A stretch of DNA of 37,862 nt from Thermoflexaceae bacterium (GTDB lineage Bacteria; Bacillota; Clostridia; Lachnospirales; Lachnospiraceae), in NCBI GenBank assembly GCA_029226085.1, contig JAQXXN010000226.1, forward strand, positions 1-37,862. The letters run 5' to 3'. Position numbers and translations under genes: made by a program. Below the pieces are notes generated by a model. It was not told the origin of the DNA, ran no database searches, and worked only from the letters and a program-made list of their open reading frames with translations. Positions 7,949 to 10,242 of the stretch are shown here, one piece after another (within the stretch, counting starts at the first letter, position 1; every line of letters starts with the position of its first letter).

Positions 7949-7977
7949 TTGACAGAGAATTATTTTATATGTATACT
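7949..7977 (+). promoter_or_regulatory. Consensus sigma-A promoter TTGACA-N17-TATACT
   Basis: TTGACA at 7949-7954, exactly 17-nt spacer, TATACT at 7972-7977. No ORF starts nearby downstream. Confidence 0.8.
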
Positions 7978-7983
7978 TTAGAA

Positions 7984-8208
7984 AAGAATTACAATGAATT
8001 TTAGGAGAATGTTGCATGTTAAGTGTGCTTGTAATGGAGAAAATTGCAAAATAAATATTGCAAGGGTGATTTTTGGCTGTATGCCAGAAGTCTGCCCGTT
8101 TGCTGACAGCTTGTCTGCTCAGCATTTTCGCCTTACAATCGCTTAATATTGTGGTATGTCTTTTGGTAATATTCCTGTAAATGATATAAGCATGGCTGTC
8201 TGGCTGTG
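7984..8208 (+). ncRNA. Candidate stand-alone structured small RNA (family unassigned; 6S-like is one possibility)
   Basis: Consensus promoter immediately upstream. Long interrupted stem: TTGTAA(8029-8034)/TTACAA(8133-8138), GG/CC, GAAAAT(8039-8044)/ATTTTC(8124-8129). Ends in an 8-bp hairpin plus T-rich tail at 8179-8209. No convincing ORF. Confidence 0.65.
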
Positions 8209-8209
8209 C
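8179..8209 (+). terminator. Intrinsic terminator of the candidate small RNA
   Basis: AGCATGGC-TGTCTG-GCTGTGCT (8 bp including two G.U) followed by TTTATTTTT. Confidence 0.75.
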
Positions 8210-8250
8210 TTTTATTTTTGGGAAAATGGAAATTGATAATCATATGTATG

Positions 8251-8298
8251 AAAACCATGGTATTTTATGCTCTTAGGCACCATGGTTTTTGTATTTTA
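8251..8298 (+). terminator. Palindromic hairpin in mutS2-like leader
   Basis: AAAACCATGG (8251-8260) / CCATGGTTTT (8280-8289), perfect 10-bp inverted repeat followed by a T-rich stretch. May be a terminator or a leader hairpin. Confidence 0.5.
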
Positions 8299-8337: not shown

Positions 8338-10242
8338 ATGAATACAGAAAAACAAATTGAATTTGATAAAATCAAAGAAATATGGATGGGACTTGCGGTC
8401 ACAGAATGGGCAAAAGAAAAGATAAAAGGAGCCGCTTTTTATCTGTCCGAAGGGGAATTAAGAAAGCAGTTAAGGGACACAACAGACGGAAGGAATCTGA
8501 TGGAAAAGCTGGGTATGCCGCCGCTTCAGAATGTGGTGGAAATTAAGGATATCCTTATGATTTCAGAAAAAGGAGACTGCCTTACCCCACACCAGTTAGA
8601 ACAGTTAGAAAAGATTCTGGCAGCTATCCGGCGTTTAAAGGATTATCTGAAGAGAGGAAAAATGTATGACAATCCGCTTAGCTTTTATGAGGAAAACCTG
8701 GATGCGCTGGAGGACTTAAAGGAAGAAATTTGCAGACAGATAAGAAATGGTGCGGTAGATGATTATGCTTCAAAGGAGCTTTTGCAGATAAGAAGCCAGA
8801 TTACAAAATGTGAAGAACAGATGAAGCAGAAAGCAGAACAAATCATTCGCTCGCATAAGGAATGCATGGCGGATAACTATTATACCCTGCGTAACGGGAG
8901 AGTCTGTGTTCCTGTAAAAAAGGAATGCAGGCTTATGGTATCAGGAAGCGCGATTGATAAATCGGCTACGGGAAATACTCTATTCATTGAACCGACATGT
9001 GTTTCAAAGCTTCAGGAAGAATTACAGCTTCTTAAAATTGGCGAAGAAAATGAAGTATACCGTATTCTGTATACATTAACAGCAATGGTGGCCGATGCGG
9101 TTGAAATCATGAAAGAGAATATTACAATGATAGAAAAACTGGATTTTATTTTCTCAAAAGGAAAGCTAAGCATGGATATGGATGCGGTGGAACCGACAAT
9201 TAATACCGGGCGTAAAATTGTACTAAAAGATGCCAGACATCCGCTGATGGATAAGGAAATCAATGTACCGCTGCAATTTGAAATCGGAGAGGAAATCCGG
9301 GGAATCATCATAACAGGTCCTAACACGGGTGGAAAGACCGTGGCAATTAAGACGGTAATGTTAAACTGCATGATGGCACAGTGCGGACTGCATGTTACCT
9401 GTAAAGAAGCGGATATCTGCATGAATAATTCCTATCTTTGTGATATTGGTGACGGTCAGAATCTTGCAGAAAATTTGTCTACTTTTTCTGCACATGTTAA
9501 AAATGTTCTGGAAGTATTAAGCGAAGTAAATAAGGACAGCTTCGTAATCATGGACGAACTGGGTTCCGGAACAGACCCGGCGGAGGGGATGGGAATTGCC
9601 ATTGCAATTCTGGAGGAACTTCGGAAAAGCGGCGCAATTTTTCTTGCTACCACACATTATCCGGAAGTAAAGGAATATGCGGGGAAGACACCGGACATCA
9701 TAAATGCCAGAATGACCTTTGATAAAGAAACCTTAAGACCAACGTATCAGATGGTAATTGGGGAAGCGGGAGAAAGCTGTGCGTTTTATATCGCAGACCG
9801 GCTTGGAATGCCAAAGGAAATGCTTCGCACAGCCATTAAGGCGGCTTATGGAGAAGAAGCCGTTCATGCATATCACTTCCAAAAGGGTGATACTGTCATG
9901 GAGAAAAGGAATACGAGCAGGATTGTAAAAGTTAAGAAACCAAAAGGCAATATGGAACTTACCACAAAATATAAGCTGGGAGACAGTGTCATGGTCTATC
10001 CGGAGAAAAAGATTGGAATTGTATGCGAGCCGGTAAATGAGAAGGGTGTGTTAAGAGTACAGCTGCCGGGGAAAAAGATATGGATTAATCATAAACGGGT
10101 AAAACTGCATGTGGCGGCAACGGAATTATATCCAGAGGATTATGATTTTTCGATTCTTTTTGAAACGGTTGAAAACAGGAAGCTTGCCCATGACATGGGA
10201 AGAAAGTATACCGAAGGGATTATCCGGCATGATGAGAAATAA
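8338..10242 (+). CDS. MutS2-like DNA mismatch repair/recombination ATPase, lacking a C-terminal Smr domain
   Basis: ITGPNTGGKTVAIKT (Walker A), VIMDELGSGTDPAEG (Walker B/D-loop), ATTHYPEVKEYA. ATG at 8338 after AAAGGAGAATATCAGG preferred over the 8206 start, which would read through an inverted repeat. No Smr motifs at the C-terminus. Confidence 0.88.
   Translation: MNTEKQIEFDKIKEIWMGLAVTEWAKEKIKGAAFYLSEGELRKQLRDTTDGRNLMEKLGMPPLQNVVEIKDILMISEKGDCLTPHQLEQLEKILAAIRRLKDYLKRGKMYDNPLSFYEENLDALEDLKEEICRQIRNGAVDDYASKELLQIRSQITKCEEQMKQKAEQIIRSHKECMADNYYTLRNGRVCVPVKKECRLMVSGSAIDKSATGNTLFIEPTCVSKLQEELQLLKIGEENEVYRILYTLTAMVADAVEIMKENITMIEKLDFIFSKGKLSMDMDAVEPTINTGRKIVLKDARHPLMDKEINVPLQFEIGEEIRGIIITGPNTGGKTVAIKTVMLNCMMAQCGLHVTCKEADICMNNSYLCDIGDGQNLAENLSTFSAHVKNVLEVLSEVNKDSFVIMDELGSGTDPAEGMGIAIAILEELRKSGAIFLATTHYPEVKEYAGKTPDIINARMTFDKETLRPTYQMVIGEAGESCAFYIADRLGMPKEMLRTAIKAAYGEEAVHAYHFQKGDTVMEKRNTSRIVKVKKPKGNMELTTKYKLGDSVMVYPEKKIGIVCEPVNEKGVLRVQLPGKKIWINHKRVKLHVAATELYPEDYDFSILFETVENRKLAHDMGRKYTEGIIRHDEK

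Follow-up and report, generated by a model that had tools for sequence, protein, structure and literature searches.

A structured leader RNA with a conserved 12-codon uORF, probably a ribosome-stalling-dependent attenuator, precedes an SMR-less MutS2 paralogue in Lachnospirales

The whole stretch of DNA that was analyzed, hereafter the window (37,862 nucleotides of contig JAQXXN010000226.1, from a member of the Lachnospiraceae), carries a sigma-70-type promoter, a structured RNA of ~200 nt and, just downstream and in line with it, a MutS2-like gene (Table 1). A preliminary description of this DNA had taken the RNA for an orphan transcription unit flanked by lgt and the MutS2-like gene, with no convincing ORF and an end at 8209, i.e., for a stand-alone sRNA gene, possibly 6S RNA. 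The promoter that it reported held up (of 96 homologous leaders, 78 have a promoter matching at least 10/12 of the consensus, as compared to 8.0 on average in shuffles), and so did its terminator (T1) and its long interrupted stem carrying internal hairpins: the window RNA was predicted to fold into such a stem at -77.4 kcal/mol, whereas shuffles averaged -54.1 (z = -5.7; 0/200 shuffles as low). The end of the unit had to be moved, as a second conserved terminator (T2) sits before the MutS2-like ATG. Using Rfam 15 at the gathering threshold, no family was matched in the element, and the window's only match was a ZTP riboswitch (RF01750; 24013-24139, + strand; 50.2 bits). Rfam 15 families were likewise absent from five homologous loci. 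When the element was scanned with Rfam at E values up to 10, matches were at chance level and RF00013 was not among them; the bona fide 6S RNA of the genome lies at G000:C111:7661-7879 (55.8 bits). Since the RNA folds far more stably than its shuffles, ends in a terminator and is not matched by 6S, the feature is real and is not 6S, and with no threshold match to any other Rfam family these identities were rejected.

Table 1. Features of the leader and of the gene downstream, in window coordinates
Feature	Position	Strand	Remarks
Sigma-70-type promoter, TTGACA-N17-TATACT	7949..7977	+	11/12 consensus match; TTGACA 7949-7954, TATACT 7972-7977
Shine-Dalgarno (SD) AGGAG of uORF	8003..8007	+	8 nt before ATG; SD-like motif in 98/98 leaders
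5' arm of long stem	8012..8043	+	includes uORF start and first nine to ten codons
uORF, 12 codons, MLSVLVMEKIAK-stop, candidate arrest peptide	8016..8054	+	open in 98/98 leaders
P2 hairpin, TTGCAA-AATAAATA-TTGCAA	8044..8063	+	90% paired; uORF stop codon in loop
P3 hairpin, conserved AGTCTGCCC at end	8064..8097	+	86-94% paired
P4 hairpin, then TTTT	8101..8124	+	strongest covariation, e.g., UA30/CG28/UG18
3' arm of long stem, TTTTCGCCTTACAATCGCTTAATATTGTGGTAT, proposed antiterminator strand	8125..8157	+	pairs with 5' arm
Terminator T1, AAGCATGGCTGTCTGGCTGTGCTT and T tract	8188..8218	+	10-pair hairpin with T tail
Terminator T2, AAAACCATGGTATT..GGCACCATGGTTTTT	8251..8290	+	about 48 nt before MutS2-like ATG
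MutS2 paralogue without Smr domain, regulated gene	8338..10242	+	ATG 8338 (8317 possible)

Covariance model R1, built from 47 sequences, and the broader R2, built from 37 diverse sequences, yielded alignment A5. The preliminary description had made its fold depend on compensatory changes among homologues, and these were found. Results showed that 88.2% of A5 cells were paired, versus at most 47.3% when the alignment was slid, and that double changes occurred at 40 of 48 pairs and in 351 cells, as compared to 86.7 +/- 16.1 cells in shuffles, although the fitting of A5 to the structure and the relatedness of its sequences bias these counts upward. Helices 1-4 were paired in 83-94% of cells (97 sequences), with double changes at 5/6 pairs of P2 and at every counted pair of P3; in divergent leaders, P2 is replaced by CAACTA..TAGTTG. 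The P4 hairpin together with the TTTT (8101-8128) resembles a weak mid-leader terminator or a pause site, and the TTTT is possibly a site at which RNA polymerase pauses.

Contrary to the preliminary description, the RNA contains a convincing, if short, ORF. In the covariance-model alignment, an SD-like motif precedes an open uORF in 98/98 homologous leaders; the uORFs span 6-14 codons, and 80 of them have 12. The alignments read AGGAGG-N7-ATG, then MLSVIVMEKIAK-stop. Start codons (ATG in 85 leaders, TTG in 12, GTG in 1) and stop codons (TAA in 92, TAG in 4, TGA in 2) change among leaders, always within valid codons, and in-frame 3-nt deletions were seen (e.g., MLIVVMEKIAK). Among unique 12-codon uORFs, synonymous codon changes numbered 58 in the real frame versus 24 and 28 in the alternative frames, and changes at the three codon positions of the uORFs were 99/104/162. 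The peptides have a conserved core, M-L-[S/I/N]-[V/I]-x-V, which could be delimited because the shortest forms are MLSVVM and MLSVVIN. Over the same stretch, frame +1 is closed in 98/98 leaders. A longer, upstream-starting ORF in another frame (MLHVKCACNGENC...), spotted by eye in the window, was rejected: its frame is open across the uORF stretch in 80/98 leaders and closed in 18/98.

Searches of 397 Lachnospiraceae genomes by blastn with the RNA alone gave matches in 24 at E <= 0.001, of which a few of the weakest are probably due to chance. A protein search with an SMR-less MutS2 relative independently added 80 loci; since these were picked by protein, the claim of gene linkage is built on the RNA-only searches, which recover the leader upstream of MutS2-like genes. 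Divergent leaders were found by R1 (392 genomes of the order) and R2 (397 genomes of the family, 42 with matches), and the MutS2-like genes downstream of these leaders show identities from 45% upward. From a class-level genome sample, two leader matches were obtained, both in Lachnospiraceae, and no phage copies of the leader were found; one match (L121 in G424) lies inside a coding sequence and was taken as chance. MutS2-like genes also occur without the leader, as among 20-odd loci in which no copy was obvious, R2 failed to match several for which sufficient upstream sequence was available.

The gene lgt was absent from beside the RNA in all locus windows fetched beyond the genus. Since it is a neighbor within the genus only, the reported position of the unit, with lgt on one side and the MutS2-like gene on the other, is half coincidence, and the RNA is linked to the gene on its right, which is conserved. 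Divergent leaders also lie upstream of genes for a DrrA-like ATPase and ABC2_membrane_6 permeases (L154, L163, L164, L167, L169, L171, L174, and L179) and upstream of GNAT acetyltransferase genes (L084, L159, L160, and L161). At some loci outputs are combined behind one leader, i.e., a methyltransferase gene and then a MutS2-like gene (L172), exporter and MutS2-like genes (L154), or GNAT and MutS2-like genes (L161), and three genomes (G351, G543, and G134) carry two leaders, each before a different output gene. This conserved downstream linkage led us to reject a stand-alone sRNA, and a uORF in the stem likewise speaks against it; what stands of the sRNA reading is that the RNA is real, conserved, and structured, has a promoter and a terminator of its own, and matches no Rfam family. 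Judged by its sequence context, the element is a cis-acting 5' leader that precedes genes of a few types, and this is what a modular, reusable cis-acting sensor with several outputs would look like.

The protein encoded downstream in the window matches TIGR01069 (533.7 bits; cut-off, 400) to position 511 of 790 only: its core and ATPase are present and MutS_V is kept, whereas domain profiles detected neither an Smr domain nor a recognized MSSS domain. It is a MutS2-related paralogue and not a canonical MutS2, which would have core, ATPase, and Smr. A full-length MutS2 that has both Smr and MSSS is also encoded in the same genome, and the paralogue is 35% identical to it over about 500 residues. 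Among its closest PDB relatives are the MutS2 structures 7qv3 and 8qpp, which we take to be those of B. subtilis MutS2. Bacterial MutS2, as represented by B. subtilis, is homologous to the regulated protein in core and ATPase over about 500 residues but differs from it by the two domains that the paralogue is missing. In B. subtilis, MutS2 acts on stalled ribosomes by splitting them, and cells that have lost it are hypersensitive to chloramphenicol, tetracycline, and erythromycin (PMC10897456). Considering that the SMR domain mattered in bringing B. subtilis MutS2 to collisions (PMC10897456), the SMR-less paralogue may act differently.

Terminator hairpins of the GCATGGCTGTATGGTCATGC type follow the 3' arm in 94/98 leaders, a count that includes some T2 copies in leaders missing T1, and T2-like terminators (ACCATRGTAT..ATGGT type) are located between T1 and the gene in 59/90 leaders versus 7/270 shuffles. 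The ACCATRGTAT sequence of T2 (8251-8290 in the window, with equivalents in L030-L107) is kept across many genera, beyond pairing alone. A plain terminator would not usually show this, and a second pairing or a binding site may be the reason. Complementarity of the 3' arm to the 5' half of T1 was greater for cognate than for swapped partners (z = -3.4, P = 0.001; controls flat); this advantage fell to P = 0.027 after deduplication and did not reach significance when divergent arms were taken by themselves (P = 0.08). The 3' arm is complementary to T2 as well, yet without a cognate advantage, and a T2 antiterminator formed by the 3' arm was rejected on that ground. Masking the uORF in silico freed the 3' arm. 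In most leaders, the freed arm paired with the 5' half of T1 in nascent transcripts; this antiterminator was favored solely as long as the 3' half of T1 had yet to be transcribed, and hardly any such pairing was seen in the window's own leader. At equilibrium, T1 stayed intact in most leaders when the uORF was masked, so an equilibrium switch was rejected. A domino model (3' half of T1 with 5' half of T2) was discarded as well, as inspection of the sequences showed T1 changing with no matching change in T2. The exact antiterminator is, at this stage, tentative.

This leader thus combines a conserved SD and uORF (98/98), a uORF that makes up the 5' arm of the covarying regulatory stem, and predicted intrinsic terminators, T1 and T2, between the uORF and the gene. 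We propose, with a probability of about three in four, that it is a ribosome-stalling-dependent transcription attenuator for the SMR-less MutS2 paralogue; as a whole, an attenuator is well supported by the sequences. The leader would be transcribed from its promoter and the uORF translated at once. Were the ribosome to complete the uORF, the 5' and 3' arms would form the long stem carrying P2-P4, and T1, then T2, would end transcription to give a short RNA. Were it to stall at the first codons (M-L-S-V-x-V), most likely through a ribosome-targeting antibiotic, the 5' arm would be covered and the freed 3' arm (UGCUUAAUAUUGUGGU) could pair with the 5' half of T1, perhaps with T2 too, such that the polymerase would continue into the MutS2-like gene, whose product may, like MutS2, split or rescue stalled ribosomes. 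We infer an antibiotic as the inducer because of the output genes and the precedents, with less confidence than we place in the attenuator. One shortened leader (L160:299-368, in G169:C27), with a GNAT gene downstream, lacks P2-P4 and keeps T1 and T2, while its uORF (MLTVIVIEQSAIA) extends into the 3' arm; it is possibly a minimal form of the switch.

The main rival that remains is a branched-chain amino-acid sensor, in which the uORF would respond to charged Leu, Val, or Ile tRNA, as ilv leaders do, through the same stem/terminator switch. The core residues are indeed mostly Leu, Val, and Ile, and the ilvB leaders of Corynebacterium achieve uORF-based amino-acid attenuation in this way. However, the outputs (MutS2-like, ABC exporter, GNAT, and methyltransferase) include no biosynthesis genes, the third uORF position is often Ser or Asn, and particular residues are kept rather than any run of branched-chain codons, making such a sensor unlikely. 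Its own promoter, an efficient-looking terminator, and the short stable transcript to be expected would also suit a trans-acting sRNA that merely happens to lie upstream of genes, the uORF rendering it dual-function at most. Yet a short terminated transcript would be expected from an attenuator in its off state as well, and Listeria rli80 is itself catalogued as a small RNA (PMC6310831). Linkage to few downstream gene types across families, retained when the type changes, a second terminator immediately before the gene, and a uORF inside the stem render a trans-acting sRNA quite improbable. Least probable of all is a ligand-binding riboswitch, or a leader bound by its own gene product, with the uORF of minor importance, for which conserved internal sequence such as AGUCUGCCC and the multi-branched fold might speak, but a large share of the conservation lies in the uORF and the strand pairing with it, Rfam gave no match, and reuse before unrelated genes argues against autoregulation.

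Returning to the stalling-dependent attenuator, several known systems invite comparison. Macrolide leader peptides of the erm and msr genes stall with the drug, e.g., at IAVV of ErmAL1 and IFVI of ErmCL. They are short, hydrophobic, and Val/Ile-rich, and their faint likeness to S-V/I-V-V is a lead rather than a test, whereas they are longer, stall further from Met, and have erm/msr genes downstream. Antibiotic-inducible attenuators of ARE-ABCF genes (VmlR, VmlR2, CplR, and LsaA; PMC10201436) likewise rely on uORF-controlled premature termination before a resistance or rescue gene, but their uORF consensus sequences (MIN, MK[L/Q], MR[I/M], and MAGN; PMC10201436) include none like ML[S/I]VxV, and the RNA and genes differ. 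Alike in kind is the anatomy of rli80, a small RNA with a 14-codon uORF ending in a terminator before Listeria hflXr, a second copy of a ribosome splitter, in which stalling blocks termination (PMC6310831); uORFC-6-1, upstream of Bacillales hflX (PMC8632094), is similarly a short uORF in a structured leader. Those two systems have an RLR peptide and an HflX-family gene, whereas peptides of the MLSVV type, terminators in tandem, and several output genes characterize the leader described here. Since the RLR motif was present in none of the 98 uORF peptides and hflX was not among the outputs examined, we do not place it with rli80/uORFC-6-1. The literature searched, which comprised neither subscription papers nor preprints, contained uORF attenuators before hflX and ABCF genes, none before a MutS2-like gene, and no MLSVV peptide. 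The best explanation of the sequences would be an undescribed candidate arrest peptide joined to a MutS2-paralogue target that is new for uORF attenuators.

More tentatively, and at somewhat less than even odds, the MLSVV leader may be an undescribed stalling sensor of Lachnospirales for a small antibiotic-response regulon, the main target of which, the SMR-less MutS2 paralogue, would follow HflXr as the second class of resistance factor that splits ribosomes and is induced through its own uORF attenuator. The case already shows that what looks like an "sRNA" in the sequence can turn out to be a leader in which a 12-codon gene was overlooked. If the proposal is true, 98 naturally varied leaders would be available for the study of arrest and attenuation, and MutS2-type splitting would gain a resistance role parallel to that of HflXr. 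Gut Lachnospirales would then have in common a stalling sensor in which a candidate arrest peptide with the core MLSVV is coupled to an SMR-less MutS2, an ABC exporter, or modifying enzymes, predicting new inducible antibiotic-tolerance genes in these commensals.
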